From positions 1-40,962 of the forward strand of contig JAFIGH010000041.1 in assembly GCA_020831525.1 (NCBI GenBank): 40,962 nt of DNA, in the 5' to 3' direction. Every line of letters begins with the position of its first letter. Positions within the stretch are counted from its first letter, which is position 1. The stretch comes from Opitutales bacterium (lineage in GTDB: Bacteria > Verrucomicrobiota > Verrucomicrobiia > Opitutales > Oceanipulchritudinaceae). Made by a program: the position numbers and the translations under genes. Shown one piece after another: positions 7,392 to 27,740 of this stretch. Below the pieces are notes generated by a model. The model searched no databases, was not told where the DNA came from, and saw only the letters and a list, made by a program, of their open reading frames with translations.

Positions 7392-7789
7392 GAGCGGTCC
7401 CTCTGCTCGACACGCACATTTGGCTGTGGTGGTTGCTTGGCGACGACCGGATGGCTGCGGAAGAACGGAGTTTTCTCGATGCTCTACCCGCGCCGGAGCG
7501 CCCATGGCTCTGCGACATCAGCATCTGGGAAACAGCATTGCTCGTAGAAAAGGGGCGTGTCGAACTCGACTGCCCGATGGCGGATTTCCTGAAAATCGCG
7601 ACCTCTCCCGCGACCGTCCGCGTGCTTCCGATTACCGACGGAGTCGCCGTCGAAATGAACGCTCTCCCTGAAACCTTCCACCGTGATCCCGCGGACCGTC
7701 TTATCGTCGCGACGGCCAGACAACGCGGAATCCCCGTGGCCACCCGGGACCGCCTCATCGTGGACTCGGATTTGGTCCAAATCTGGTGA
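7388..7789 (+). CDS. PIN-domain toxin, VapC family
   Basis: This 133-residue protein is a VapC-like PIN-domain ribonuclease. The expected acidic residues are visible: first Asp in LLDTHIWLWWL, Glu in SIWETALLVEKG, the Asp of HRDPADRLIVATA, and a last Asp in VATRDRLIV. PIN toxins cleave structured RNAs, often tRNA, using Mg2+ bound by these acids. All positions look intact, so the toxin is probably active. It overlaps the Phd antitoxin gene by four bases and ends ten bases from the convergent SRAP gene. Confidence 0.88.
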   Translation: MRAVPLLDTHIWLWWLLGDDRMAAEERSFLDALPAPERPWLCDISIWETALLVEKGRVELDCPMADFLKIATSPATVRVLPITDGVAVEMNALPETFHRDPADRLIVATARQRGIPVATRDRLIVDSDLVQIW

Positions 7790-7799
7790 CCGACGCCCG

Positions 7800-8537
7800 T
7801 TAGTTCGGCCCGCCGCCGGGGAACAGCTTGTCGAAGAAGTCGGTCGCGCGCGGGTATTCGTGGCGCTCGAGGAGCGAGGGGCTGTCATTGCGCGTATTGC
7901 CCACGTCCGGCCCGACGGGCCACGCCTCCATCGCCTCTGCGGGGAACGGGCGCAGAAGCGGGCGCACGGCGGCGGCATTCGTCACGGCAGGATCGAGCCA
8001 CGTGTCGTAGGCCTCGGCGGGCAGGATCACCGGCATGCGGTCGTGGATCGTCGCCATGAGCGCGTTCGGGCGTGTCGTGAGGAGAGCGCAGGAGAGGATC
8101 TCCGAACCGCCGGGGTGGCTCCAGTGTTCCCAGAGACCCGCCAGCGCGAAGGCACCGCCGTCGCGCATGCGGATGAAGTGCGGTCGCTTCACTCCGTCGA
8201 CGGACTTCCACTCGTAGAAACCGTCCGCCGGGACAATGCAGCGGCGGTAGCGCAGGGCGTCGCGGAAGGCGGGTTTTTCGGCGGCGGTCTCGGCGCGGGC
8301 GTTGATCAACCGCCATCCGATGTCCGGATCGTCGGCCCACTTCGGCACCAGTCCCCAGTGAAAGTAATCCAGCGAACGGCACTTTCGGTCGCGGTCGTCA
8401 AAGGCACAGAGAATTCCCTGTCCCGGCGCGATATTGTAGCGCGGATTCCACGCCGACACCGCCCCCGCATCCATCCGCGCGCGGAACCGGCGCGCGAGTT
8501 CCTCAGGGGGTGTCTTGACGATGAAGCGGCCGCACAT
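7800..8537 (-). CDS. SRAP-domain protein (YedK/HMCES family)
   Basis: A 245-residue SRAP protein. The family forms a covalent link between Cys2 and abasic sites in single-stranded DNA, shielding them from breakage. Seen here: Cys2 directly after the initiator Met (MCGRF), the asparagine of RYNIAPGQ, NARAET, the glutamate of ADGFYEW, and the histidine of TIHDRMPVIL, so the active site is complete. It lies 18 bases after the preceding lipoprotein gene on the same strand and may be cotranscribed. rmuC nearby gives this area a DNA-maintenance flavour. Confidence 0.93.
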   Translation of the reverse strand: MCGRFIVKTPPEELARRFRARMDAGAVSAWNPRYNIAPGQGILCAFDDRDRKCRSLDYFHWGLVPKWADDPDIGWRLINARAETAAEKPAFRDALRYRRCIVPADGFYEWKSVDGVKRPHFIRMRDGGAFALAGLWEHWSHPGGSEILSCALLTTRPNALMATIHDRMPVILPAEAYDTWLDPAVTNAAAVRPLLRPFPAEAMEAWPVGPDVGNTRNDSPSLLERHEYPRATDFFDKLFPGGGPN

Positions 8538-8555
8538 GGGGACAGCGAAGCGGCG

Positions 8556-9314
8556 TCATTGGAGCCAGTCCAGCCAAAGCGCGGCGAAGGCATCGGTCTC
8601 TTCCGGCGTGAATACCAGCCGCGCCGGCTCCCGAGGGAGAAACTCCATGCGCGGTTCGCCGAGCGCCGTGCCGAGGGCCCGCACAGCGTCAAACCCGGTG
8701 CCGAAAACATCGGGCTGCACGACCGTCGAAAGCTCGCCCGCGCGCAGGGCCGGCAACCACGCGGGATTCAGGCCCACCGCAACCGCGCCGCTGGCATTCC
8801 GCTCCGCCGCTTCCACCGGAAGGTCCGCATCGAAATACAGGCTCGGACGGACGGCAAACTCCGTCCCGAGCCCGTCCAAGGCCTGCCGCAGACGCCGCCG
8901 AGCTTCCGCGCGGAACACATCATTCGCGCCTTCGCGGTCAGTCCCCGCCCACGCCACCGCGCCGCCTGCCAGCACCACCACATCCTCGAACAACTCCCAG
9001 CGCAGCTCCGGTCGCGGCACAATAACAAGTCCTTCATATCCAGCGCCGACGACCTCGCGCAACACGCGCTCCTGCGCCTCCGCCGTCATCGCGCGCTCCG
9101 TCCAGTCGCGCACCGCGGTTTCGATGGAAAACTCCGTGCGCGCGGTCTCCGCCGCCGCGCGCATCCCCGCCAGAAGGGCGGCATGCGCCGGGTCACCCCG
9201 GTCGGCCCCGATCACCGCGATGCGCAGGTCCGCGTCCGCCGCCGCCGCGCAGGCGGCGAGGACCATGCACAACCCGAAAACCGCGACGAAGCGCAACTCC
9301 GCGCACCTTTCCAT
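8556..9314 (-). CDS. Putative lipoprotein, periplasmic sugar-binding-like
   Basis: A 252-residue protein with a lipoprotein signal: hydrophobic FVAVFGLCMVLAAC, where LAAC fits the lipobox. The mature part starts LRIAVIGADRGDPAHAALLAGMRAAAE and later reads GLVIVPRP, resembling type 1 periplasmic binding proteins of the LacI/RbsB sort. It appears shorter than the usual binding protein of about 300 residues, and no ABC transporter genes are adjacent, so a sensor or orphan role is as likely as transport. ATG at 9314 has GAGGTGG upstream; it is divergent from rmuC with 38 bases between start codons. Confidence 0.55.
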   Translation of the reverse strand: MERCAELRFVAVFGLCMVLAACAAAADADLRIAVIGADRGDPAHAALLAGMRAAAETARTEFSIETAVRDWTERAMTAEAQERVLREVVGAGYEGLVIVPRPELRWELFEDVVVLAGGAVAWAGTDREGANDVFRAEARRRLRQALDGLGTEFAVRPSLYFDADLPVEAAERNASGAVAVGLNPAWLPALRAGELSTVVQPDVFGTGFDAVRALGTALGEPRMEFLPREPARLVFTPEETDAFAALWLDWLQ

Positions 9315-9352
9315 TGCCACCTCATTGTCGACGCGGAATTCTAGCGATCAAG

Positions 9353-10747
9353 ATGGAAGTCGGAACATTCATCGCGGGCTTCGCCGCCGGGGCCGTCCTC
9401 TGCGCCCTCGCCGCGCTCTTCATCCTCCGCGGACGCGAGCATGCCGCCGCCATGCGACGCGCGGAGCTGGAATCCACCCTGCGGGCGCGCGACGAGGAAA
9501 GGGCACGGCTGGAGACGGAAGCCGGCAAGGCAACGGACGCCCTCGAACAGACCCGCCGTGAGTCACGGGACCTAGGCAACGCGCTCACCGAAGAGCGGAC
9601 CCGCCGCGAAGCCGAGGTAAAGGCCGCCGAAGAGCGCATCGCCGAGTTGCAGAAGCTCCGTGAACGGCTCGAAAACACCTTCAAAGCGCTTTCCTCCGAG
9701 GCCCTCCGGAACAACAACACCGCCTTTCTCGAACTCGCCCGTGAAAGCTTCGGCAAACTCCGCACCGAGTCCACCGGCGAACTCGAGAAGCGCAAGCAGG
9801 CCATCCACGAACTCGTCGACCCCTTGCGGAAGTCGCTCGAAAGCGTCTCCGAACGCATCCGCGAAATCGAGAAGGCCCGCGAAGGCGCCTACGAAGGTCT
9901 GCGCGAACAGGTGCGCGGCCTCCTCCAGACCCAGGGGCAGCTCCAGCGCGAAACCGGCAACCTCGTGCAGGCCTTGCGCACCCCCAACGTCCGCGGCCGG
10001 TGGGGCGAAATGCACCTGCAGCGCACCGTCGAATTCGCCGGCATGGTCGAACACATCGACTTCACCGGCCAGACCTCCGCCACCGGCGACGACGGCACCC
10101 TGCGCCCCGACATGATCATCCGCCTGCCCGGCGGCAAAAACATCGTCGTCGATGCCAAGGCGCCGCTCGAAGCCTACCTGCGCGCCGTCGAGACCGAAGA
10201 CGCCGCCGCCAAAGACGAGGCCCTCGCCCACCACGCCCGCCAGATTCGTGACCACATACGCAAACTCTCCGCCAAAAAATACTGGCAGCAGTTCGCCCCG
10301 ACCCCCGAACTCGTCGTCCTCTTCCTCCCCGGCGAGGCCTTTTTCAGCGCCGCCCTGCAAAAAGACCCCTCCCTCATCGAAGCCGGCGCCCGGGACAATG
10401 TCCTCGTCGCCACGCCCACCACCCTCATCGCCCTCCTGCGTGCCATCGCTTTCGGCTGGCGGCAGGAACGCATCGCCGAGGAAGCCGAGGCCATCGCCAA
10501 ACTCGGCGGCGAACTCCACGAACGCCTCGGTACCCTCGGCGGGCACTTCCAGAACCTCGCCAACGCCCTCAACCGCAGCGTCGATTCGTTCAACCAAGCC
10601 ATGCGCTCCCTCGACAGCCGCGTCCTCGTCACCGCCCGCCGCTTCGAGTCCATGGGCGGCCTGCGCACCAAACCCCTCCCCGACGCCCCCCTCATCCACG
10701 GGAAAGCCGAACCCTCCGCCAACCTCGACCCGCCCGAAAACAAATAG
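9353..10747 (+). CDS. rmuC: DNA recombination protein RmuC
   Basis: RmuC is a membrane-anchored protein with a nuclease-like C-terminal domain that limits rearrangements at inverted repeats in E. coli. The 464-residue protein has an N-terminal membrane helix (about 4-26, TFIAGFAAGAVLCALAALFI), a long coiled coil rich in E/R/A (about 30-190), and the RmuC domain with GRWGEMHLQRTVEFAGM, VVDAKAPLEAYL and VLVATPTTLIALLRAIAFGW. The ATG at 9353 places the membrane helix at the N-terminus; in-frame codons further upstream overlap the divergent lipoprotein gene. The family's link to inverted repeats is notable in a window full of them. Confidence 0.93.
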   Translation: MEVGTFIAGFAAGAVLCALAALFILRGREHAAAMRRAELESTLRARDEERARLETEAGKATDALEQTRRESRDLGNALTEERTRREAEVKAAEERIAELQKLRERLENTFKALSSEALRNNNTAFLELARESFGKLRTESTGELEKRKQAIHELVDPLRKSLESVSERIREIEKAREGAYEGLREQVRGLLQTQGQLQRETGNLVQALRTPNVRGRWGEMHLQRTVEFAGMVEHIDFTGQTSATGDDGTLRPDMIIRLPGGKNIVVDAKAPLEAYLRAVETEDAAAKDEALAHHARQIRDHIRKLSAKKYWQQFAPTPELVVLFLPGEAFFSAALQKDPSLIEAGARDNVLVATPTTLIALLRAIAFGWRQERIAEEAEAIAKLGGELHERLGTLGGHFQNLANALNRSVDSFNQAMRSLDSRVLVTARRFESMGGLRTKPLPDAPLIHGKAEPSANLDPPENK

Positions 10748-12231: not shown

Positions 12232-13755
12232 TCAGTGGGCGCTGATGCCGCGGTAGAGGTTCATGACGCGGTCGCTCTGTTCGCGCCGCACTTGTTCGAG
12301 GGTAAGCCGTGGGATTTTGTACTCGGCGGCGTCGCCGGGGGTGTTTTCGCAGTGCCGCCGGATGACGGCGTAGAGGAATTTGAAGGCATCCCTCGGCTGA
12401 TGCATTTGGTCGAGAGCCTCGACAAGCTCATGGTGGCCGACGTCGTCGGCAAAGATATCTTTCAACTCCTCGACGGGGGCGTCGGCACCGTCCGCGTTCT
12501 GGCAGTGGCGGAACCGGCGGCTGCAGAGGTCGTAGAGCGTGGCCCCGGTCCAGCGCAGCGGGTTGATGAGGTTTTGCTTGTCGAGGCGCGCCTGCCGCTG
12601 GAAGGCGGTGTCTTCGCGCTCCACCTGGTGCCCGAGTTCGATGGGCAGGAGCATCTTCACGGCGACACGTTCCTGCTGGAGGAATTTGTTGTTGAGCAGC
12701 GGCCAGACGAGTTTGCGCATGCGTTCCACGTCGCTATTGATGAGTACCGGCTCGTCGACGCGGTCGATGAGGACGACGAGTGAGTCGTAGCCCACTGCCC
12801 CGAGAACACGGAGCAGACGCTGTGTCATTTCGTAGCGCTTGTCCTGGTCCTCCTTGTCGGGGAGGAGCGCGAGCGTGCCGGCGTTTTCCGGCAGGTTCCA
12901 GAAACCGCGGGAGAGCGCCTTGCGGGTATGGCTGACGGCGCGGATGGCGTCGCGCACGCGCCCCGCGCGCAACCAGCGGCGGAAACTGCCCGACACCCAT
13001 GCCGCCCCAAGGAGGACAAAACCAAGCGTCCCGGCCACGGCGGTGATCTTCCACTCGAGCGAGGCGGGGTCTGTGAAATGCCATACCCCCGCCCCGGCCA
13101 GCCCCGCGAGGCCGAAGAGCAATGCGGCAATGCCCAGCCCCGTGCGGTCGAGGAGCGGGCGCACGCGCAGGATTCGCAGGATTCGGGACCAACGGCTGCC
13201 GTCGTCACCGTGGGCAGGCTGGTCGTAGAGCAGGGCAAAGAGCGCGAGGTCGAGTCGCTTTTCGCGGCTCATTTTCCGGAGCGCTTTGTGATCTGCCTTC
13301 CGCCAGCGCTTGTCTTCCGCGTCCGTATCCTCTCCGAGGATCCAGTCGAGCAACTCCGTGACGGCGAGGCTGAGGATCGCGTCCTGATGATCGGAAAGAG
13401 TTATGTGGTCGAGACAGTCGGCGGGATCTTTGAGGGACAGATTATGCGAGAGCCGGTCGAGCACGGGGTTGATGTCGTCGTAGCGCACGATCCACGCCCG
13501 CCCGTTTGGCTGCTCTTTGTTGTACGACCGCAACCGCCGTTCGATCATCAGGCGCATGGCGGTCTTTCCACTGCCCTTCTCCCCGAAAACGATGGATGTG
13601 CTCGGGTTCTGCGGATTCCCTTCGATCTTCTGGAAGTCCGGATGGGTGACGGTCGCCTCCAGAGTCCGGGCGTAGACCGCGTCGTTGCGCGCCTCCTCGG
13701 CGAGAAACGGATTCTCACTCAGATGCCAGTGTGCGAAGAAGTCTTTTAGGTCCAT
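12232..13755 (-). CDS. Membrane-anchored P-loop NTPase (AAA/KAP-like)
   Basis: A 507-residue P-loop ATPase. Walker A GEKGSGKT is at residues 58-65; Walker B (LVVLIDRVDE) is at about 326-335. Between them, two predicted membrane helices (about 204-226 and 236-256) form a hairpin embedded within the NTPase domain, the layout of KAP-type NTPases that face the cytoplasm. The N-terminal HWHLSENPFLAEEA resembles other bacterial ATPases of this kind. It follows the dynamin-like gene on the same strand after 90 bases, and the pair may work together at the membrane. Exact family and function are unknown. Confidence 0.7.
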   Translation of the reverse strand: MDLKDFFAHWHLSENPFLAEEARNDAVYARTLEATVTHPDFQKIEGNPQNPSTSIVFGEKGSGKTAMRLMIERRLRSYNKEQPNGRAWIVRYDDINPVLDRLSHNLSLKDPADCLDHITLSDHQDAILSLAVTELLDWILGEDTDAEDKRWRKADHKALRKMSREKRLDLALFALLYDQPAHGDDGSRWSRILRILRVRPLLDRTGLGIAALLFGLAGLAGAGVWHFTDPASLEWKITAVAGTLGFVLLGAAWVSGSFRRWLRAGRVRDAIRAVSHTRKALSRGFWNLPENAGTLALLPDKEDQDKRYEMTQRLLRVLGAVGYDSLVVLIDRVDEPVLINSDVERMRKLVWPLLNNKFLQQERVAVKMLLPIELGHQVEREDTAFQRQARLDKQNLINPLRWTGATLYDLCSRRFRHCQNADGADAPVEELKDIFADDVGHHELVEALDQMHQPRDAFKFLYAVIRRHCENTPGDAAEYKIPRLTLEQVRREQSDRVMNLYRGISAH

Positions 13756-13845
13756 AATTGCGGAGAAATGCGCCGCCCCGCTCCGCGGGCCGGATGATCG
13801 AGAGCGGGCGGCGTTGCCAGCATGCCGCGCGGACGGCGCCGATCC

Positions 13846-16185
13846 TCAGACAATGCGGCCGTCATCCGGCAGATCCAAGCCGGAATCCCACGCCTCACCT
13901 TCGTCGTCTTCGTCCTGATCGTCCGCATTCTCGGCATCATTCACGCCCTCCGCGTCGGAGTCGAGACTTCGTTTGTCCCCCACAAAACGCACATGCAAGT
14001 CGTTCACTTCGCCGCGCAACCGCTGCGTCGCGGAGCCAAGGCCGTCGAGCGCGTCGAGCGCGGACCGTTGCGCCTGGTAGCGCCGCCGCAGGTCCGACGA
14101 GACCTTCTGCAACTCGCTTGCCTTACGGTCGAGGCGTTCGGCGAGGTGCTTTTTGAAGAACGCGGCGTAGGCGTCCAACACACTTTCCAAGTCCTTCACA
14201 ACACTGTTTTCGAACGCTTCCACGGCATACTGCTCAATGGACTCGGCAAGGTAGTCACGGCCTGCATCGCCCAACCGCTTGGCCTTAAGACCCGCGGAAA
14301 TAGGCTGGTCCGAAGGGGACGACTCACCCAACAGGCGGCGCCGCACGGCAGCGGGCGACCGGAACATGATCCAATCTAGAACCGTGCGCCGCACGGGCAG
14401 CCCCTCCTCCAGCGCGCCGGTATCGGGCAGGTTGGGCACATCCGCGAGCCGTTTCTTCGCCTCGGGCTCGAACGCGGGGTAGATGTCGTCGAGCGACAGT
14501 CCGAGATCACGGAGGCAATGAAGAATCTCCGAGTTCAGGCGCAGTCCGGCATCCTTCTCCCGCGCGCTCTCGTCAATCAACTGCGCGCCCTTACTGCGCG
14601 CTCCGGCACACGCCTCGGCGATCCGTGAACGGCTGCGCCCGACGAGCAGATTACCGAGGCTTTCATCCGACTCATACCAACTGTCGACCTCCCCGCGAAG
14701 GCTCGCCTTGAGGCCCGGGAGGACAGACAAGGCCTGTTCCTTCACACGCTCCCGCAGGCTGCCGAGCATTTCTTCCAGCGGATGGTCCCACTTGTCCTCG
14801 CCAAGGAAGCGGACGGCATTGAGCTGGTTCTCTTTCTCATCCGAGGCCTTTTTCAGGTCCTCAATGCGGGCGCGCAGGTCAGCGACAGGCGGTGACTCCG
14901 CCTGTTCTTCCGTTTCGTCGAGGACGGACTTTGCCTGCCGCAGACTGTCGGACATGAATTCGACAATATAGTCGCTGCTGTTCAAATATTCGGTGAGGTC
15001 GTCGACAAAGGCATCAAAACCAAGCTGCACTTCCGTCTCGGGACGGACAACCTCTCCGCCGGTCACCGCGTCGCCGCCCGCTGAGGAAGGCCCTACCGCA
15101 TCTTCATGATCAGCGGACTCCACGCCCGCCGCGATGTCTGTCTCCTCTTCCGTGTCAGCCTCCGGCGCGGCGGCATCGTGGCCTTCCGCCTCGTCCGCGC
15201 CGCGGGTCTCCGTTTCCAGCGAAGCGCCCTCTTCCTTCGACTCCCGCAAACGCCTCTCGGCGGTGCGCAGAAGATCGATCAGGTAAATCCGCAGGCGACC
15301 GCTCTCGATAGCGGAGCGGATTTGCGCGCTGACCGTCAGTGTTTCAAAAGCCTCCACGATTTTGCGCGGGTCACGGCTCTCCAAGGCCGGCTCCAGCTCA
15401 CCGGAAGGGCTGAGGTCCTTTTTTGACGAGTCGATGTTTACGACGAGAAACACCCGCGAGAAGACATTCAACAAATCCGCAAACTCGTTGAAGACCTGCT
15501 CAAAAAAGAGATTGTCGGTCTTCACGACAAAGACGGCGCACGCGGCGGTGTCCCGGAAATCACGGGTGAGCTGCCCGTAGTTGTACTTCATCTTTGTGTA
15601 GAGTCCGGGCGTGTCGACAAGGATCGTCCCCGACTCCCGAAGCGCCGGTGCCGAAAGCGTAAAATCAATCCGCCGCACGGCATCTTCATAATCCTGCGCC
15701 GGATTGAATACCCGCCCCTCCTCATCGGCCTTGCGGATCTCGTGCGCAAGCAGTTCGTGCGCCTCCTCGATGTTCTTCTGCAGTTCCTCACCCGAGCGGA
15801 ACGTCTTCCGCTCACCGTTGAAGCGCGTGAGGGAAAACTCCCGCTCCTCACCCTCGTGCACATACACAAGACACGGATAGGCGGGCAAACTCGACACCTC
15901 GCTCACATAGGCGCCGCTGATCGCATTCATGAGCGTAGACTTGCCGCTCTTCAAAGGACCGAAAATTACAAGGTAGGTATTCTGCTGCGCTGCCTTGTCC
16001 CGCAGGATCTTCAAGCGGTGCTGGTTGTCGAGCAGCGCGCTCGACACGGCGTTGAGGGAGGGCTCGTCCGACACGCGCCGGATTGTCTGGATAGCGTCCT
16101 CCAGTGCCTCGGCGAAGGGCTCGAGCGTGCCGGAAAAGCTCTGGCAGAATTCTGTGAGATCGACGTGTATAGTTTCTTTTAACAT
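13846..16185 (-). CDS. Dynamin-like GTPase
   Basis: A 779-residue protein with a dynamin-type GTPase domain: P-loop GPLKSGKST (76-84), DTPG (191-194) and the G4-type NIDSSKKD (250-257). The usual dynamin LPxGxxPVT switch is replaced by SSLPAYPCLVYV, so the G2 threonine appears absent. An acidic, low-complexity insert (about 325-395) separates the G domain from a long helical region (about 400-740) typical of stalk-forming assemblies. The C-terminus is highly acidic (DAENADDQDEDDEGEAWD). No membrane helix is seen, unlike the downstream NTPase. Bacterial dynamins remodel or protect membranes, some in phage defence; the role here is inferred only. Confidence 0.82.
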   Translation of the reverse strand: MLKETIHVDLTEFCQSFSGTLEPFAEALEDAIQTIRRVSDEPSLNAVSSALLDNQHRLKILRDKAAQQNTYLVIFGPLKSGKSTLMNAISGAYVSEVSSLPAYPCLVYVHEGEEREFSLTRFNGERKTFRSGEELQKNIEEAHELLAHEIRKADEEGRVFNPAQDYEDAVRRIDFTLSAPALRESGTILVDTPGLYTKMKYNYGQLTRDFRDTAACAVFVVKTDNLFFEQVFNEFADLLNVFSRVFLVVNIDSSKKDLSPSGELEPALESRDPRKIVEAFETLTVSAQIRSAIESGRLRIYLIDLLRTAERRLRESKEEGASLETETRGADEAEGHDAAAPEADTEEETDIAAGVESADHEDAVGPSSAGGDAVTGGEVVRPETEVQLGFDAFVDDLTEYLNSSDYIVEFMSDSLRQAKSVLDETEEQAESPPVADLRARIEDLKKASDEKENQLNAVRFLGEDKWDHPLEEMLGSLRERVKEQALSVLPGLKASLRGEVDSWYESDESLGNLLVGRSRSRIAEACAGARSKGAQLIDESAREKDAGLRLNSEILHCLRDLGLSLDDIYPAFEPEAKKRLADVPNLPDTGALEEGLPVRRTVLDWIMFRSPAAVRRRLLGESSPSDQPISAGLKAKRLGDAGRDYLAESIEQYAVEAFENSVVKDLESVLDAYAAFFKKHLAERLDRKASELQKVSSDLRRRYQAQRSALDALDGLGSATQRLRGEVNDLHVRFVGDKRSLDSDAEGVNDAENADDQDEDDEGEAWDSGLDLPDDGRIV

Positions 16186-16385: not shown

Positions 16386-18746
16386 TCAACGCCTCCAGTG
16401 GTGGTGGGGCATGAGCCAGCGGGCGATGGCGGGCAGGAGAAGAATGGCCCCGAGCATATTAAAGAGGAACATAAATGTGAGAAGAATCCCCATGTCCGCC
16501 TGAAACTGAAGGGCCGAGAATATCCACGTGCTCACACCCACCGCAAGGGTCAAGCCCGTGAAGACCACGGCACTGCCCGTTTGCCGCAGCGCCTCGACAA
16601 GAGACTCCTCAAAGAGGAGACCGGTGCGCATGCACTCACGCAACTTGAAGAAGAGGTAGATCCCGTAGTCAACCCCCACCCCCACCCCGAGGGCCACAAC
16701 AGGGAGAGTGGACACCTTGAGACCGATCTCCATCAAATACATGAGCGCATAGGCGAGAATGGATACAACCGCCAGCGGGGTGACGATGCAGAAAGCGGCC
16801 CGCCACGAACGGAAGGCAATGAGGCAGAGGACAATGACGGCACTAAAAACATAGAGCAGCATGGGGAACTGCGCGGCAGCCACAACCTCGTTGGTCGCCC
16901 CCATGACGCCCACATTGCCGGTCGCGAGCCGGAAGGCGACATCGTCCGCATCCTCCGTTTCGCGGAACGCCTTCACCGTTTCAATCACGCCCTCGATGGT
17001 CTCGGCCTTGTGGTCGCGGAGAAAGATGTAGACGGGCATAACGCTGCCGTCGGCATTGAGCAGGCCGGTAGCCGTATCGACCGGAGAAATCGCCTGCCCG
17101 AGCACGGCGGGGTGGCGCGGGAGGATATGCCACTTCGGATTCCCTTCGTTCCAGCCTTGGTTGATCGTCTTGGCGACAATCGGAAGCGACGACACCGACT
17201 GCACGCCCGGCGCGTTGCGGGCGTGCCACGAAAGCCGGTCGATCTTCTCCATAATACGGTAGTCCACACATCCGTTGGGAATCGTCTCACAGATTACCGT
17301 AATGACATTGACTCCGACATCGAACCGTTCGGTGATGGCCGCGCTGTCGCGGTTGTATTGCGAACCGGGCCGTAGCTCGGGCACGCCGTGGCTCAAGTCG
17401 CCGATGCGCACCTGAGCAGCGTAGTGAAACCCGCCCACGGCGAGAACAACGGCGATCACGATCATGGTGAGCGACCACCCAGGCTGGGCCACCAGAGCCA
17501 CGCGCCGCCAGAAGCGGTCTGTCCTTTCGCGGCGGTGCTGTATGCGCCGCCGCAGGCCGGGATCGAGCCGCACAAAGGACAGGAGGACCGGAAGAAGCAG
17601 CAGATTGGTGAAAAACAGCGTGAAGATTCCGAGGCTCGCCGTGATGGCCAGTTCCTGGATGATCGGAATACGGATCGCGAGGATCGTGATAAAGCCGATC
17701 AAATCAGTCGCGAGAGCGGTCGATCCCGGCACGAGCAGCTGCGCGAAGCTATCGCGCGCGGCCTGTAGACTCGATTTCCCGTTGAAGAACCCGCTCCTGA
17801 AGGAGCGTACCATCTGTACGCCATGGCTCACCCCGATGGCAAGGACAAGGAACGGCACGAGAATCGACATCGGATCAATCCCAAAGCCGAGGAGGCGCAG
17901 GAGCCCGAGTTGCCACACGACGGCTGTTACCGCCGTGAGAACGGTGAACCCTGCAAGCCGCGCGGACTGCGCGTAATGATAGACAAATACCGTTGTAATC
18001 AGCAGCGAAATGAAGAAGAAAAGAATCACATTGGCCGCCCCGTCGCGAACATCCCCAATAACCTTGGCGAACCCGATAATGTGGACATTCAGTCCGATGG
18101 ACCGTCCCCGGCGCTCAAACGGCTCCCGAAACCGATCTTCGAGGTGATTCGCCACCTCGATGTAGTCGAGCCGCCCGCCCGTCGCCGGATCGACCTCGAG
18201 GAGCTGGGCGGAGATGATCGCACCGGTGAAGTCACTGGCAACCAACTGTCCAAGCCGCCCAGACTTGACAATGTTCTCACGCACGACGCGGAGGTCCTCC
18301 TCCGTCCCCTGAAAGTCGGCGGGCACGACGTTCCCGCCCGCAAAGCCGTCTTCCACGATCTCGATAAAGCGGACATTCGGTGTCCAGACAGAGGTCACCT
18401 GCGCGCGGTCGACCCCCGGAATGAAATAGGCCTCGTCCGTGGCTTCGCGGAGGAGATTGAAAAAGAGCGGATCAAAAATATCGCCCTCGTCCATCGTAAA
18501 GGCGATGAGCACACGGTTCGCCCCGCCGAACTCATCCTGATACTCAAGAAAGGTCTGGATGTATTCATGACTGAGCGGCAGTTGCTTGGTGAAGCCGGCG
18601 TCGACGCGCAATTGCAGGGCCGACCAAATGAGAAAGGCCGTTGCCGCCACAAACAGGAAAAGCACGACCGCGCGGAAGCGGAAGAGGACAGCCGCCGTGC
18701 GCTCCAATCGACCGCCGCCGGATCCCGCGCGCGGGTCGGCTTTCAT
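16386..18746 (-). CDS. RND-superfamily (MMPL-type) exporter
   Basis: A 786-residue inner-membrane protein of the predicted RND exporter type. An N-terminal helix (about 27-46) is followed by a large periplasmic loop beginning LRVDAGFTKQLPLSHEYIQ, a block of several membrane helices with GFGIDPMSILVPFLVLAIGVSHG, then a repeat of the same plan ending with VVALGVGVGVDYGIYLFFKL, the expected two-fold internal duplication. Its ATG overlaps the stop of the YCF48-like gene by four bases. With DUF1329 and DUF1302 upstream, it probably moves a lipid or other hydrophobic compound across the envelope; direction and substrate are unknown. Confidence 0.85.
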   Translation of the reverse strand: MKADPRAGSGGGRLERTAAVLFRFRAVVLFLFVAATAFLIWSALQLRVDAGFTKQLPLSHEYIQTFLEYQDEFGGANRVLIAFTMDEGDIFDPLFFNLLREATDEAYFIPGVDRAQVTSVWTPNVRFIEIVEDGFAGGNVVPADFQGTEEDLRVVRENIVKSGRLGQLVASDFTGAIISAQLLEVDPATGGRLDYIEVANHLEDRFREPFERRGRSIGLNVHIIGFAKVIGDVRDGAANVILFFFISLLITTVFVYHYAQSARLAGFTVLTAVTAVVWQLGLLRLLGFGIDPMSILVPFLVLAIGVSHGVQMVRSFRSGFFNGKSSLQAARDSFAQLLVPGSTALATDLIGFITILAIRIPIIQELAITASLGIFTLFFTNLLLLPVLLSFVRLDPGLRRRIQHRRERTDRFWRRVALVAQPGWSLTMIVIAVVLAVGGFHYAAQVRIGDLSHGVPELRPGSQYNRDSAAITERFDVGVNVITVICETIPNGCVDYRIMEKIDRLSWHARNAPGVQSVSSLPIVAKTINQGWNEGNPKWHILPRHPAVLGQAISPVDTATGLLNADGSVMPVYIFLRDHKAETIEGVIETVKAFRETEDADDVAFRLATGNVGVMGATNEVVAAAQFPMLLYVFSAVIVLCLIAFRSWRAAFCIVTPLAVVSILAYALMYLMEIGLKVSTLPVVALGVGVGVDYGIYLFFKLRECMRTGLLFEESLVEALRQTGSAVVFTGLTLAVGVSTWIFSALQFQADMGILLTFMFLFNMLGAILLLPAIARWLMPHHHWRR

Positions 18747-19873
18747 CCTTCGCGCCGCGCCTCCCGCCGCGGAAGGTGCAACCGGTGGACTCCGTTCAGC
18801 CCCACGGCGACGACAACCCCGTCGGGTGCCTCGACAAGCGCCGCCGCGCCCTGCACGGGCACCCGCCAGAGCGCGAAACTCCGCCCTCCATCCCGGCTGA
18901 GAAAAAACTGGCCGTTCTGCGCGGCGAGGACGACCTCACCGCCGGATAGCCGCGCACCGTGCGTCACAAGGAGCGGCGCCGGTGATTCCACATCGGTCCA
19001 TGACACACCTCCGTCGCTCGAACGGAAGACATTGCCGCGCAAGCCGTAGGCAAGAAGCGTCCGGGCTCCCAGCGGAAGAACCCCGAAAAGCGAACCGTCG
19101 TAGGGCGAGTCCATTTCTTCCCAAGTCTCACCGTCATCGACGGAATGGAGGAGTTCGCCAGTCTCCAACGCGATGAAGAGCCCGCCGTCAACTGCCGCCG
19201 AAATGCGATTGAAATGAAGCTCCTCCCAAAAGATTTCGCGCAATGACCATCGGTTGCCGCCATCCATTGTCTCCACGAAAAGGCCGTAGGCGCCGACGGC
19301 GAACCCGCGCTCGGCGTCCAGAAAACGCACATCAAGAAAGCGGTTTTCGATACCTCCTTCCGCGTATTGATGATTCCATGACCTGCCTCCATCTGTTGTC
19401 GCGAGGACGACGTTGTCGTGGCCGACGGCCCAGCCCAACTCCGAATCGGCAAAGAAAACCGCGGTCAATGTGGAGCGGGTGGGCACCGGGACTTGCTCCC
19501 ATGTTCGCCCGTAATCATCCGAAAGGAGGATATGTCCGCGCTCCCCCACCGCGACCAGACGGTCGCCCGCCAGCGCGATATCAAGAAGCACCGACCGCTC
19601 CGCCAGCGGCATGATCTCGGCGGGAATCTCGACACGGGCGGACAGAGAATTGGGGAGGGAGACAAAAACGAAGAGGAGGAGGAAAAGAGAGGATGACCAC
19701 AATGCCGCCGCACCGCACCCGTAGCGCGAAGCTTCAGCGAGCGGCCGCCGCGCGCGCACGCTTCTGCCAACCGCACACGTGCCTCGCTTCAGCTGAAGCC
19801 TACGCGACACCGCCGCACCCCATACGTAGCGCAGTACTTTTGCGAGCGAAACGCCGACAAAGATTCCATCCAT
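18743..19873 (-). CDS. YCF48/BNR-repeat beta-propeller protein
   Basis: The mature part is a run of BNR/YCF48-type repeats: HILLSDDYGRTWEQV, VVLATTDGGRSWNHQ, LFVETMDGGNRWSL, LLHSVDDGETWEEM, VFRSSDGGVSWTDV, FFLSRDGGRSFAL, each with the aspartate-box GG.W pattern. A hydrophobic stretch SLFLLLFVFVSLPNSLSA reads as an export signal. The start is uncertain: ATG at 19873 is listed, but the N-terminus it yields is translated repeat DNA; GTG at 19759 or TTG at 19702 would put the signal peptide closer to the N-terminus. It lies between DUF1329 and the RND gene and likely forms part of the same envelope machine. Confidence 0.75.
   Translation of the reverse strand: MDGIFVGVSLAKVLRYVWGAAVSRRLQLKRGTCAVGRSVRARRPLAEASRYGCGAAALWSSSLFLLLFVFVSLPNSLSARVEIPAEIMPLAERSVLLDIALAGDRLVAVGERGHILLSDDYGRTWEQVPVPTRSTLTAVFFADSELGWAVGHDNVVLATTDGGRSWNHQYAEGGIENRFLDVRFLDAERGFAVGAYGLFVETMDGGNRWSLREIFWEELHFNRISAAVDGGLFIALETGELLHSVDDGETWEEMDSPYDGSLFGVLPLGARTLLAYGLRGNVFRSSDGGVSWTDVESPAPLLVTHGARLSGGEVVLAAQNGQFFLSRDGGRSFALWRVPVQGAAALVEAPDGVVVAVGLNGVHRLHLPRREARREG
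19720..19846. repeat. Three REP-like GTAG-headed palindromes
   Basis: Three 22-base units, each running from CGTAG to GCGAG, lie in the gap after DUF1329. Unit 1 (plus, 19720-19741) holds GAAGCTTC. Unit 2 (minus, about 19783-19804) is GTAG followed by a perfect 14-base palindrome GCTTCAGCTGAAGC. Unit 3 (plus, 19825-19846) has a CGCA/TGCG stem. GTAG plus palindrome is the REP signature recognised by RAYT transposases. The repeats overlap the upstream part of the YCF48-like reading frame. Confidence 0.6.
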
Positions 19874-19887
19874 CCGCTGACCTTGCT

Positions 19888-21252
19888 CTAGCGCACGCCT
19901 TCGCGACGGAGATTGGCGGGCGTGAAGTCGGAAGGCACCGGCGGGCGGGAGAAATCGTAGGGCCGTAGTTCGTTGTCCATGCCGATGGCGAGGTAGCGTC
20001 CGGCTTGGAGATCGGTATGGACCTCGAGCGTCGTCCACAGGCAGGGAACCTCATAGAAGTTGATCGCAAATCCCTCGGAAACACGCCAGAGCTGGCCACG
20101 GCCGTCGTATTGCTCCACAGCGAGGATTTGCCAGCTGTCTTCATCGACGTAAAACACGCGGCGGGCGTAGATATGGCGGGTTCCCTCGCGGAGGGTCGCC
20201 TCGACCACCCAAACGCGGTGCCGTTCGTAGCGTGTGAGGTCCTGGTTGATGTGGAGTGGGCGGAGGATGTCCCGCACGCGGATCGAGTCGCTGTGCAACC
20301 TGTAGTTATTGTAAGGCACGATAACCTCCCGCTTACCGAGGATCTCCCAGTTGTAGCGGTCGAGGGCGCCATTGAACATGTCGAACTGATCGCTTGTGCG
20401 CATACCGTCGGAAGCTGTCCCCGGATTGTCGTAGGCGACGTTCGGAGCCCGCCGAACCCGGCGCTGACCGACGTTGTAGGTCCATGCGCGCCGCGGCTCC
20501 CGCACTTGGTCGAGCGTCTCGTGCACGAGAAGAATCGACCCCGCGAGGCGCGCCGGGGCCACAACCGTCTGCTTGAGAAAGAGGAGGATGTTTTCGGAGA
20601 CACCTTCCATCGCTTCGCCGCCGCCATAGTTGAAGAGGAACTCGTCGTGAAATTCAACAAGCGTGAAATCGCCCCGACGGTTCGGCGAAGCCTGCGTAAT
20701 CGTGCGTGTAGCGCCCTCGCCGCGATAGCGCATAAGATGGTTCCAGATCACTTCCTCGCCGCGCGACGGAATAGGAAACGGGAAGCCGAAACGCGTCCCC
20801 GCCACGCCATCGCCGTCGCCGACAAGCCTTGCGTTGACGGCGTTGCTCCGGGTCGCTTCGTACACCTCTTCCGGATACGAAGCGGAGCGCCGCGTGGGGT
20901 AGACCGGTATTTTATACGTTTCCGGGTACGCGCGCAGCATGGCCTTGTGGCCGTCCGTCAGGTAATCGGCGTGCTCGTCCATGTTTTCCGTTGTGATGAC
21001 GAACAAGCGATCATCCTCCGCAAAAGGATCGGGGTGGTGCATGCCCGGCCGGTAGCCTTCGGGCCAATCCGTGAGGCCTCCGTCCCATGCGGGGATGACA
21101 CCGTCGGCGCTTCCCGCGCGTTCGGCGCCCACCGGGGTGAGGTCGCGCCCGAGGCGCTCTGCCTCCGACGAAGAGACCTGCGCATGGACAAGAGAAACCG
21201 CTCCGAGAAGCGAGAGGACAATGACGGGCTTTACGATGAAGTGATATGACAT
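19888..21252 (-). CDS. DUF1329 periplasmic protein
   Basis: A 454-residue exported protein with signal peptide (residues 1-24, ending VSLVHA) and DUF1329 features: ERLGRDLTPVGAERAGSADGVIPAWDGGL near the N-terminus, the MKL-like body with YNYGGGEAMEGVSENILLFLKQ, and EPRRAWTYNVGQRRVRRAPNVAYDNP. Its fold is related to lipoprotein carriers such as LolA/LolB, so a periplasmic lipid shuttle is the usual proposal. A strong AGGAGG lies five bases before the ATG. The DUF1302 gene precedes it by 18 bases. Confidence 0.92.
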   Translation of the reverse strand: MSYHFIVKPVIVLSLLGAVSLVHAQVSSSEAERLGRDLTPVGAERAGSADGVIPAWDGGLTDWPEGYRPGMHHPDPFAEDDRLFVITTENMDEHADYLTDGHKAMLRAYPETYKIPVYPTRRSASYPEEVYEATRSNAVNARLVGDGDGVAGTRFGFPFPIPSRGEEVIWNHLMRYRGEGATRTITQASPNRRGDFTLVEFHDEFLFNYGGGEAMEGVSENILLFLKQTVVAPARLAGSILLVHETLDQVREPRRAWTYNVGQRRVRRAPNVAYDNPGTASDGMRTSDQFDMFNGALDRYNWEILGKREVIVPYNNYRLHSDSIRVRDILRPLHINQDLTRYERHRVWVVEATLREGTRHIYARRVFYVDEDSWQILAVEQYDGRGQLWRVSEGFAINFYEVPCLWTTLEVHTDLQAGRYLAIGMDNELRPYDFSRPPVPSDFTPANLRREGVR

Positions 21253-21270
21253 GACGCCTCCTACGTAGGG

Positions 21271-23241
21271 TTAAAATGAATACTTGACTGTAGCGGTGAC
21301 AAAATCGCGGTCGCGGATCAGGTTCCGGCGCCCCGCCCCGAAGAACTTCGTGTAGTTGATATCAGCCGTCCACGAGAGCTGATAGGTTGCCTGCGCGCCG
21401 AGTGTCACGGACTTGCGGTGTTCGACGAAATTGCCGATAGGCTGCGGTGTTGTCCCGCGCACATCGTGGGCAAACTGAATCATAGGCGACACGTTCGTGC
21501 TGAAGAAAAGGTTGTCGTAGTCCAGCCTCCCGACCGCTCGGTATCCCCATGAGAATCGGTCCGCAAAGTGCCCGCTCGGCTCGGTGCCCGGCTGAAGTCC
21601 CGCTTGCGTCGCGGCCTCGGTCCCGCCGAGGAAGGTACCCGGTGCCTCGTAGCGCAGCTCGTCTTTGCCGGGCAGGCCCGGCACATAATTCGCCCCTGCC
21701 TCGACGAGAAAGACCGCCTGATTTGCGCCGAGCATGGGACCGAGAACTTTCGTCGCCGTCATCTGCGCCTGCCAGATGGATTCACGCGACCACCCGCGGA
21801 CATAGGTATCGAGCTGCCCGCTGAAGTCGCCCAGTTGATTGACGGCGGCGAAGCCGGGGTTGATGGAGGAGAGGGCGGCAAAAAGCAGCTCCACATCATC
21901 GATCTGGAGCGGCTGGTCCCAGCGGTAGGAAAGCTCACCCTGCAGCGAGATTCCGGTCGCTCCAACATCCGTGTTGAAGCTGGCCCCGAGAAGTTTGATG
22001 CTCTCGGGATACTCCACGAGGTAGCGCCCGGTGGCGGCGGCGGTGAGAAAACCGACCTGCCGCGCCCCGTCGGCGATCTGCTGCGCTCCGGGATAAAACG
22101 GCGCAAAGGGTGCCAGTTCCGGCGGCAGGCCTCCCGCCGGAACCTCCATAAGGGCTGCGCCCACAAGTTGAGGCAGGACGGCGGACACCGTCTCGGGCGG
22201 AATGCCCTGCGCGATCATTGCGGGAGCAAGGTTTGCCTGCGCGAGGTTGCCCGCCGTCGCCTGGACGACGGACGGATTGATGGGCGAAGTCGGAGTACGC
22301 GCGCTGAGCACAGGCAAACGGCTGTGGTAGTGCACAAAATACAACCCGAATTCGCTTCCGTTGAGTTCCGGCGCGTAAATGCGCGCGGCCAGCCCGAACT
22401 GTCCCGCATGGGTGGGGCGGCGGTCCTCGCCCCGCGGGATGGCCCCGAGGTCGCCGTCGTCCGGCAGCGAGCCGAACCCGAGAAACACCCGGTCACCGCC
22501 GCGTCCAACAAAGTCGTTTGTGCTGAAATATGTGCCCGGCGGGTCAACTATGATCTCCTTCCAACGGAATTGGTAGAACGCCTCCACAGTGACGTTGTCC
22601 GTCACCCCGGCGGACACGCTCGCGAGCCAAACGGGCAGAAAGGCATTGCGCAGCTCAGAACCCGGCTGACGCAGCAGCGAGACATCGACCGGATTGACGA
22701 CATTGACCCCGTTCGGGATGAATGTGCTCTCCCCCCAGTTGATGACCTGCCGCCCCAGGCGCAGATTTACAGGAGCGTTACCGATGCGCAGATTGTGCCA
22801 GAGGTAGGCGTCGAGCATGTCGTAGCGGCTGCCGACACGGTCAAGGGCCTCGCGCGTGAGCGGCGTGCGCTCGCGGTCGCGCTCCTCGTTGATGTAGTCG
22901 TAGAAGGCGCTCGCCCGGAAGAACGCGCCGGAGCGCTGGTAACGCAAATCCAAATCCGCCGTGGCGAGGACGGGGGCGGACACCCATCCCCTGGAGTAGT
23001 TCAGGTTGCCGTCGTCGGCGTTCACCGAGAACTGCGTGCCGCCTGCGGCGAGACCGATGAGGTCCGGTTGCGCGCTCTTCACGCGGTACATGCCGCCAAC
23101 GGAGACCGTCAGGTCGAGCCGGGCGTCGACGTCGCCGACCTGAAAATCGAAGGCGGAAACTGAAACGGCGGCACACACCCAGAGGGCGGGTATCCGCAAA
23201 ACGATACATGGAGCGATGAAGCGGGGCTGGAGTGATTTCAT
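21271..23241 (-). CDS. DUF1302 outer-membrane protein
   Basis: A 656-residue protein of the DUF1302 family, predicted outer-membrane beta-barrel. It has a signal peptide (about 1-30), then FQVGDVDARLDLTVSVGGMYRVKS, the family motif NLRLGRQVINWGESTFIPNGVNVVNPVDVSLLRQPG, and a C-terminus ending TATVKYSF with the terminal Phe required for barrel insertion. It is the first gene of the four-gene run. DUF1302 and DUF1329 genes are known to travel together with RND exporters; the compound handled is not established. Confidence 0.92.
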   Translation of the reverse strand: MKSLQPRFIAPCIVLRIPALWVCAAVSVSAFDFQVGDVDARLDLTVSVGGMYRVKSAQPDLIGLAAGGTQFSVNADDGNLNYSRGWVSAPVLATADLDLRYQRSGAFFRASAFYDYINEERDRERTPLTREALDRVGSRYDMLDAYLWHNLRIGNAPVNLRLGRQVINWGESTFIPNGVNVVNPVDVSLLRQPGSELRNAFLPVWLASVSAGVTDNVTVEAFYQFRWKEIIVDPPGTYFSTNDFVGRGGDRVFLGFGSLPDDGDLGAIPRGEDRRPTHAGQFGLAARIYAPELNGSEFGLYFVHYHSRLPVLSARTPTSPINPSVVQATAGNLAQANLAPAMIAQGIPPETVSAVLPQLVGAALMEVPAGGLPPELAPFAPFYPGAQQIADGARQVGFLTAAATGRYLVEYPESIKLLGASFNTDVGATGISLQGELSYRWDQPLQIDDVELLFAALSSINPGFAAVNQLGDFSGQLDTYVRGWSRESIWQAQMTATKVLGPMLGANQAVFLVEAGANYVPGLPGKDELRYEAPGTFLGGTEAATQAGLQPGTEPSGHFADRFSWGYRAVGRLDYDNLFFSTNVSPMIQFAHDVRGTTPQPIGNFVEHRKSVTLGAQATYQLSWTADINYTKFFGAGRRNLIRDRDFVTATVKYSF

Positions 23242-23834
23242 TGGTGTGGTTTAGGTCGGAGTGGAAGTCTCGGGCGGCAGGCGGAACGGTCACTCCGCGG
23301 CTGGACCGCAACCGGCGCCGACGGGCGCCGCGGTGCCCGGATCCCGCCGCTCGCGCAACAGCATGGTTGGAGACCGGAGTTCGATGAACACCGGATTTAT
23401 TTCAGGCGGATGCCGGGGTATGGTGCCTGCGCTGTTCACGCTTGAAAAATGATCTTGTTTAGCCCATCTAATCCCAACATGAACCGGTCGGATTTGTCAA
23501 CTTCTAGCCGCGCCTATAAGGTTTTCTTATTTGTAAAATGCGCACGGCTTTATGGATTACAGAGTAATTCATTCCGCCCCAGAGGCCCCCCTCTGTCCTG
23601 TTCGCCCTGATTTCCGGATCGTTTGCCACACAAAGAGAATGGAAGATTTCAGTTGATCCCCGGAGCTGAGGTCTATTTTGTTCAAAAAATGGGTGTTTTC
23701 GTTTATCTCAACCACAGGAGCGCGTTGAATGCATCGCGCCCGGCTGCCGTGCGTGCCTACCCGCGCTGGCAGGGGTACTGCCGGTCCCGACCCCTCGCCG
23801 CCGGCCGAAGGACAAGAGACCGTTGAAATCGTGT
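23242..23834. other. Divergent intergenic region
   Basis: About 590 bases separate the DUF1302 operon (minus) from the hybrid kinase (plus). The middle part (about 23440-23720) is clearly AT-richer than the genes and should hold both promoters. A TTGACA occurs on the minus strand at 23498-23493 as a possible -35 for the DUF1302 operon, with no good -10 at the right distance. No gene or structured RNA could be supported. Confidence 0.4.

Positions 23835-27740
<3,906 letters not shown>

Follow-up and report, generated by a model that had tools for sequence, protein, structure and literature searches.

A soluble mitofusin-like dynamin and a membrane-anchored AAA+ ATPase encoded side by side in Opitutales: a possible two-component membrane-remodelling machine

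What does a soluble dynamin-like guanosine triphosphatase (GTPase) do beside an ATPase that sits in the membrane? The question is raised by two adjacent genes in an Opitutales bacterium (assembly GCA_020831525.1; 5.3 Mb in 184 contigs), a representative of an order within the Verrucomicrobiota. The window analyzed here is one entire contig of 40,962 bases, JAFIGH010000041.1, and a preliminary description of it, made from the DNA letters alone, proposed that the two genes encode a machine for remodelling or guarding membranes. Bacterial dynamins are commonly encoded in adjacent pairs whose products are believed to work as hetero-oligomers (PMC6104087, PMC4159319). The pair in the window departs from this arrangement. 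It may form a transcription unit for a two-component membrane-remodelling machine, composed of a soluble dynamin and an interchangeable membrane-anchored ATPase and likely serving envelope maintenance, a reading to which we give an even chance of being right. The two genes and the space between them are as follows.

13846-16185, minus strand: soluble BDLP/mitofusin-like dynamin-like GTPase of 779 residues, first gene of the pair (assigned from Dynamin_N and the predicted fold)
13756-13845: 90-base gap between the genes, with no terminator-like site in a simple scan
12232-13755, minus strand: membrane-anchored ORC/Cdc6-fold AAA+ ATPase of 507 residues, second gene of the pair (assigned from profiles and the predicted fold)

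Both open reading frames were found where they had been placed, on the same strand with the dynamin upstream, and since both are long and have homologues in other genomes they are more than chance. Three samples were searched, comprising 55 relatives, 387 genomes of the phylum, and 177 genomes of the order Opitutales; a dynamin set of 21 genomes and an ATPase set of 14, which excludes a split ATPase in genome G423, served for comparison. The two genes are adjacent, dynamin first, in six genomes, four of them from one family (two genera) and two, G086 and G423, from a family belonging to a different class of the same phylum; the concern that homologues might never adjoin elsewhere is thereby removed. 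The intergenic gap is 90 bases in G000, G001, and G002, 36 in G016, and 2 in G086. The flanks differ between the window, G016 (a cytidylate-kinase-like gene and ABC ATPases), and G086 (polysaccharide-degrading enzymes and a sulfatase), so that the two genes are the conserved part across these three settings. No promoter was found in a scan of the window, and in a simple scan terminator-like sites occur there at chance level only.

If genomes are treated as independent, co-occurrence of the two genes exceeds chance expectation in both larger samples. All four relatives that carry the ATPase, among the 55 sampled, also carry the dynamin (present in eight), and in each the two are adjacent. The phylum sample contains seven strong dynamin matches and 12 strong ATPase matches, with four genomes holding both (the chance of at least four shared genomes is 1.8e-5 under independence) and three of these, G000, G086, and G423, holding them side by side. 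Weak matches are excluded from the phylum counts, namely six of 13 for the dynamin (E 7e-7 to 8e-4) and one of 13 for the ATPase (G208). Within the order sample the dynamin occurs in 16 genomes, and the three ATPase genomes are all among them (chance 6e-4 under independence). The 43 genomes of G086's order were searched for the dynamin, with the ATPase outside that search; a single weak match there, in G549, is likewise excluded. In a scan of genome contigs the dynamin was found in only two sister metagenome-assembled genomes, at 86% and 83% identity.

The first gene is recognizable as a dynamin both by profile and by predicted structure. Dynamin_N matches it at 48.7 bits, exceeding the curated cut-off of 27, and a G4-like pattern, V-N-[I/T/V]-D-x-x-K-x-D-L, is present in all 21 dynamin homologues. 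Its elements are listed here in the order of translation.

15934-15960, minus strand: G1 P-loop GPLKSGKST, residues 76-84, with identical letters in 21 of 21 dynamins
15871-15888, minus strand: LPAYPC, residues 100-105, standing where a switch-I threonine motif is usual and shared by 21 of 21 dynamins
15604-15615, minus strand: G3 motif DTPG, residues 191-194, in 21 of 21 dynamins
15031-15228, minus strand: acidic low-confidence insert, residues 320-385 (sequence and model)
14326-14382, minus strand: conserved aromatic and arginine motif, residues 602-620, a candidate membrane-contact (paddle) site, the pattern being present in 20 of 21 dynamins
13849-13962, minus strand: acidic low-confidence tail, residues 742-779 (sequence and model)

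An AlphaFold model of the dynamin, built from an alignment of 13 sequences, is of moderate confidence (mean predicted local distance difference test, pLDDT, 72; predicted template modelling score 0.49), with parts of the G domain below 50. A Foldseek search with this model places BDLP closest (E 1.4e-11), followed by IniA, the mitofusins, and the Campylobacter dynamin-like protein pair, and VIA-align against mitofusin-1 gives Z 16.6 over 382 residues (root-mean-square deviation, rmsd, 5.5). The model appears to share with these proteins a G domain followed by a helical bundle and stalk. In a sequence search of solved structures the dynamin profile recovers BDLP at 2.8e-4, not as the top row and among helical proteins that are taken as coiled-coil noise. 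Because the dynamin is predicted to have the BDLP/mitofusin fold, membrane remodelling is its natural reading. No member of the family exceeds the threshold used for hydrophobic peaks (0 of 21). The acidic insert and tail of the preliminary description are present, though both fall below pLDDT 50 in the window protein and vary among homologues, the insert measuring 22 to 86 residues from motif to motif. The same description held that the G2 motif had been replaced. LPAYPC is indeed found in every homologue, and the unusual switch region is thus a family trait; a Ser or Thr is nevertheless retained two residues ahead of it in all 21, so that it is not certain that the G2 hydroxyl has been lost. 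The switch-I loop falls below pLDDT 50 and its alignment to BDLP is ambiguous. Canonical catalysis by the window dynamin is likewise not certain, being neither demonstrated nor ruled against by the switch-I sequence.

The second gene encodes a protein in which a membrane hairpin appears to interrupt a nucleotide-binding domain, and its elements are these.

13561-13584, minus strand: Walker A GEKGSGKT, residues 58-65 (sequence)
12946-13146, minus strand: predicted transmembrane hairpin, helices 204-227 and 233-270, within an insertion relative to the DS41_1 profile (model and hydrophobicity)
12751-12780, minus strand: Walker B with DRVDE, residues 326-335, DRVDEP standing at 331 (sequence)

The two membrane helices originally placed between Walker A and Walker B are borne out by hydrophobic peaks starting at residues 206 and 237, and all 14 ATPases have two such peaks between Walker A and DRxDEP (about residue 331). 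The ATPase model, from 14 sequences, reaches pLDDT 81.5. Foldseek with this model alone returns nothing significant (best E 9.9e-3), and in a sequence search of solved structures the ATPase profile retrieves AAA+ proteins in just two rows, of which TnsC is one, at E 0.044. With VIA-align, the candidates for the ATPase include archaeal ORC/Cdc6 (1w5s_B; Z 13.2 over 262 residues, rmsd 6.4), from which many other AAA+ rows differ by 4 Z units at most, as well as RdrA (Z 11.5), MuB (Z 11.0), and TnsC (Z 10.5). As modelled, the ATPase carries an AAA+ core of ORC/Cdc6-like arrangement. Dynamin_N has no match in it at E <= 1, so the pair does not consist of two adjacent dynamins as paired operons do.

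Among sequence families, the nearest are DS41_1 (NF053860) and Sll1717 (NF047389) of NCBIfam, each of which matches all 14 ATPases (DS41_1 with a best E of 6.7e-34). Scores for the window protein are 102.7 bits against a curated cut-off of 370 and 61 bits against a cut-off of 75, respectively. When pieces of the protein are searched apart, residues 12-141 align with DS41_1 positions 2-109 and residues 300-473 with positions 192-354, while the 110-residue middle piece matches no profile searched. Both ends thus align to DS41_1, and some 76 residues, the hairpin among them, have no counterpart in that profile, which makes the ATPase a hairpin-inserted relative and not a member. By sequence it is distantly related to the anti-phage family DS41_1 and to the Sll1717 family, with scores below both cut-offs, and the earlier view that the locus matches no named system needs qualifying accordingly. 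A literature search on Sll1717, confined to listings and the starts of abstracts, found no paper. KAP NTPases also have a membrane insertion between the Walker motifs. The window ATPase resembles them in having membrane helices inside a P-loop domain; in contrast to them it has no KAP_NTPase match at E <= 1, and an hhalign profile comparison with six KAP proteins from its own order is confined to 46 columns at the P-loop (probability 46). KAP identity was rejected on these grounds.

A different protein takes the place of the ATPase in related genomes. In G039, G427, G462, and G479 the dynamin is closely followed on the same strand by a protein of about 453 residues (the G479 copy is cut by the contig end), which matches Dynamin_N, giving an adjacent dynamin-family pair in those four genomes. 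Its resemblance to EHD2 and EHD4 is far stronger than that to Dynamin_N (5e-47 and 2e-43 with a single sequence), and its profile matches EHD2 at E 4e-55 over about 300 residues. To our knowledge the EHD family is otherwise known only from eukaryotes, and in a literature search on bacterial EHD proteins, covering listings and abstract starts only, no relevant paper was found. The bacterial proteins differ from EHD2 and EHD4 in having two hydrophobic segments after the G domain, as seen in eight of eight members. They were located as follows.

L020:10606-11964; L092:8057-9418; L101-L104; L106-L108: EHD-like proteins (profile match to EHD2)

The EHD-like protein occurs in nine of the 177 Opitutales genomes, all nine within the 16 that have the dynamin (chance 3e-11 under independence), and was not found in any of the 15 ATPase-carrying genomes searched. 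Of the 21 dynamin genomes, seven have the ATPase (adjacent in six), nine the EHD-like protein (adjacent in four), five neither, and none both. The two partners exclude each other among the genomes examined (p 0.007 by genome, 0.049 by genus). EHD proteins have ATPase activity, and both candidate partners, one a dynamin-superfamily member and the other not, are presumed to be ATPases. This pattern of partner exchange strengthens the interpretation of the pair as a membrane machine.

The dynamin tree conflicts with host family. The six dynamins that adjoin an ATPase form one group among its 21 rows (support 86/84, or 88/87 when three long rows are removed), although four belong to a single host family (f1) and two come from a different class. 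The other two f1 dynamins fall elsewhere, that of G003 having no partner and that of G008 an EHD-like one. Forcing the six f1 dynamins into one clade is rejected (approximately unbiased test, p-AU 1e-4), and holding the 17 host-order dynamins together is rejected more weakly (p-AU 0.025), both tests having been chosen after the tree was seen. The dynamins therefore seem, from their sequences, to follow partner type more than host, and joint movement of the two genes is one way to read this.

If the pair forms a machine, its site of action would be the inner surface of the cytoplasmic membrane. The dynamin would assemble on the membrane through its helical stalk and the conserved aromatic/arginine tip, while the hairpin emerging from within the AAA+ domain would hold the ATPase in the bilayer. 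The ATPase might then recruit the dynamin and, with ATP, load or disassemble its polymer; in related lineages the membrane-anchored EHD-like protein would serve the same dynamin instead. The likely job is envelope maintenance, that is, the tethering, fusing, or sealing of damaged membrane, a task suggested by the precedent of BDLP and of DynA (for the latter, PMC8844932). Co-transcription, physical interaction, direction of control, and physiological job are all what we infer. A more specific proposal, that a mitofusin-like dynamin works with an exchangeable anchored ATPase, either EHD-like or a hairpin-bearing AAA+ of ORC/Cdc6 type, in a cassette that moved between classes as a unit and constitutes a combined GTP-and-ATP machine not described in the literature searched, is tentative.

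Known systems illuminate parts of this arrangement. Campylobacter Cj-DLP1/Cj-DLP2 and other paired operons (PMC6104087) likewise place a dynamin beside a second nucleotide-driven partner (5owv_B, Z 13.0), but in the window that partner, instead of being a dynamin, is an AAA+ ATPase of ORC fold bearing a membrane hairpin; the locus can thus plausibly be described as a variant of the paired bacterial dynamin whose membrane-anchored AAA+ partner comes from outside the dynamin family. The window dynamin shares its G domain, helical bundle, and stalk with Nostoc BDLP and the mitofusins and differs from them in lacking a hydrophobic segment, in its LPAYPC switch, and in its acidic insert and tail. 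The alternative partner of related genomes resembles EHD2 and EHD4, as already described. AAA+ ATPases have also been proposed to act with PspA/Snf7-type polymers, and PspA/Snf7 with AAA+ proteins and ESCRT-III with Vps4 share the principle of a membrane-shaping polymer served by such an ATPase (PMC11237479). Here, by contrast, the polymer would be a dynamin-superfamily GTPase and the ATPase would be membrane-anchored and of ORC type. Literature searches on dynamin with AAA+ proteins or Verrucomicrobia, limited to listings and abstract starts, returned nothing that looked like a paper on this pair.

Several observations weigh against the two genes forming one machine, and they nourish the rival view that these are independent, co-transcribed proteins: a membrane AAA+ of the DS41/Sll1717 kind that works by itself on a client of its own, and a dynamin acting alone as BDLP may, their adjacency inherited once and passed on. 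Eight of the 12 strong ATPase genomes in the phylum sample are without this dynamin, in varied surroundings with different neighbours, so that the ATPase also exists independently; to this extent the caveat that the two genes might belong to separate families, as first raised, is partly justified. Conversely, no partner was detected in five of the 21 dynamin genomes, among them G228, which is 86% complete. Even where both genes are present they need not be linked, lying on different contigs in G067, whose ATPase falls within a well-supported clade of six from its host family. The G423 ATPase (L065:7480-8966) is split over two overlapping frames beside a whole dynamin frame, through decay or assembly error. 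Five of the nine EHD-like genes stand away from the dynamin, one of them at only 42% identity. Support for uniting the ATPase-adjacent dynamins is not strong, the tree has long branches, and the host-family test was picked once the tree had been seen; for the paired ATPases a single clade is neither established nor rejected (p-AU 0.349). Finally, the co-occurrence and exclusivity p-values assume independent genomes, an assumption that is false in ignoring relatedness.

Against independence stand a gene order and orientation that two classes share although the flanks differ, the exclusivity with the EHD-like partner, and the finding that within Opitutales the ATPase is not seen without the dynamin (three of three in the order sample, four of four among the relatives). 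On balance we consider two independent proteins rather unlikely. A scan for other dynamins with Dynamin_N was positive in all 29 genomes and in 12 of 14 control genomes, and hence picks up other GTPases. In the eight genomes with a solitary ATPase the best Dynamin_N matches are pieces of P-loop length, in frames that are Era (six) or Der (one) by NCBIfam scores over cut-off among the seven of eight scanned, G337 being excluded. The solitary ATPases of G143 and G229 (L061:3639-5213 and L062:8331-9893) adjoin a gene whose N-terminus appears RecN-like.

The preliminary description went on to suggest an anti-phage role. Under this proposal the ATPase would sense infection, as DS-41 or RdrA-type proteins may, and the dynamin would seal or destroy the membrane, delaying lysis or killing the infected cell. 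Some evidence points this way. The ATPase is distantly related to DS41_1, presumably, to judge by the name, the DS-41 system that is among the validated systems of the DefensePredictor paper and has homologues even in Halobacteria (PMC13092281), and the predicted fold of the ATPase resembles RdrA. B. subtilis DynA delays phage lysis (PMC8844932). PADLOC profiles for LeoBC weakly match 12 of 13 dynamins, the window protein at 29.6 bits over positions 19-201 of 601, the G-domain part; mad8 also matches 12 of 13, in the window protein through the P-loop. LeoA/LeoBC (Eleos) was rejected as an identity, there being no full-length match and the partner not being a dynamin.

The setting argues otherwise. 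PADLOC applied to five neighbours in the window, three in G016, and five in G086 recognized no defence system. Its strong matches are of the window RmuC with RTasRmuC (2.7e-55) and of two ABC ATPases close to the G016 pair with mad3 (2e-28 and 2e-32); Pfam accounts for these proteins as ordinary RmuC and ABC_tran members of the same broad families, and an anti-phage island is not supported. A hybrid kinase in the window gives weak PADLOC matches (E about 0.02). A tblastn search of 72,556 plasmid records found no match, and of 49 and 13 stretches flagged in viral contigs none was confirmed, a phage collection being outside that scan; a mobile cassette was accordingly set aside. Base composition gives no sign of recent arrival, the GC content of both genes, overall and at third codon positions (GC3), being within the range of their neighbours. 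As the recognized neighbours are mostly metabolic and relatives in plasmids or viral contigs were sought without success, an anti-phage role, though possible, lacks support, and we think it improbable.

Least probable is a factor of cell division or envelope morphogenesis, in which the ATPase would be a membrane landmark positioning the dynamin at the septum, where DynA/DynB (mentioned in PMC6104087) act in Streptomyces: an anchor joined to a soluble dynamin in a chromosomal-looking, non-mobile setting would suit it, but the dynamin's patchy occurrence in the order is unlike that of an essential division factor, and no division gene was recognized among the scanned window genes.

Most neighbours that could be assigned to a family have metabolic or housekeeping roles. 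On one side of the pair lie a BadF-type kinase and RmuC, and features noticed elsewhere in the window are these.

7683-9344: 553-residue open frame without a Pfam or NCBIfam match at E <= 1, which may not be a gene
9314-10747: RmuC (E 4.6e-100), whose PADLOC match is likely a false lead for defence annotation
16386-23241, minus strand: run of MMPL transporter, YCF48-like, DUF1329, and DUF1302 genes beside the pair
23823-27740: hybrid histidine kinase of 1305 residues with solute-binding sensor, PAS, GAF, receiver, and Hpt domains

The sister genome G002 has frames of similar length for at least DUF1302, DUF1329, and MMPL beside its pair. The run looks like a lipid or steroid handling cluster and not part of the pair. 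Rfam has no match in the window.

The interpretation of the pair as a membrane machine with an anchored ATPase bears on how bacterial dynamins are understood. The earlier suggestion of a membrane machine retains its basis in two nucleotide-driven proteins, one of them anchored, that are adjacent in genomes of two distant families and include a BDLP/mitofusin fold. In the common view bacterial dynamins usually need a second dynamin as partner; if the present interpretation is true, the partner may instead supply anchoring and ATP-driven control of dynamin assembly, by analogy with the systems above, and not a second GTPase. It would also place an EHD/mitofusin-like combination in the Verrucomicrobiota, and would offer a small two-gene system in which the recruitment and resetting of bacterial dynamins could be tested directly.

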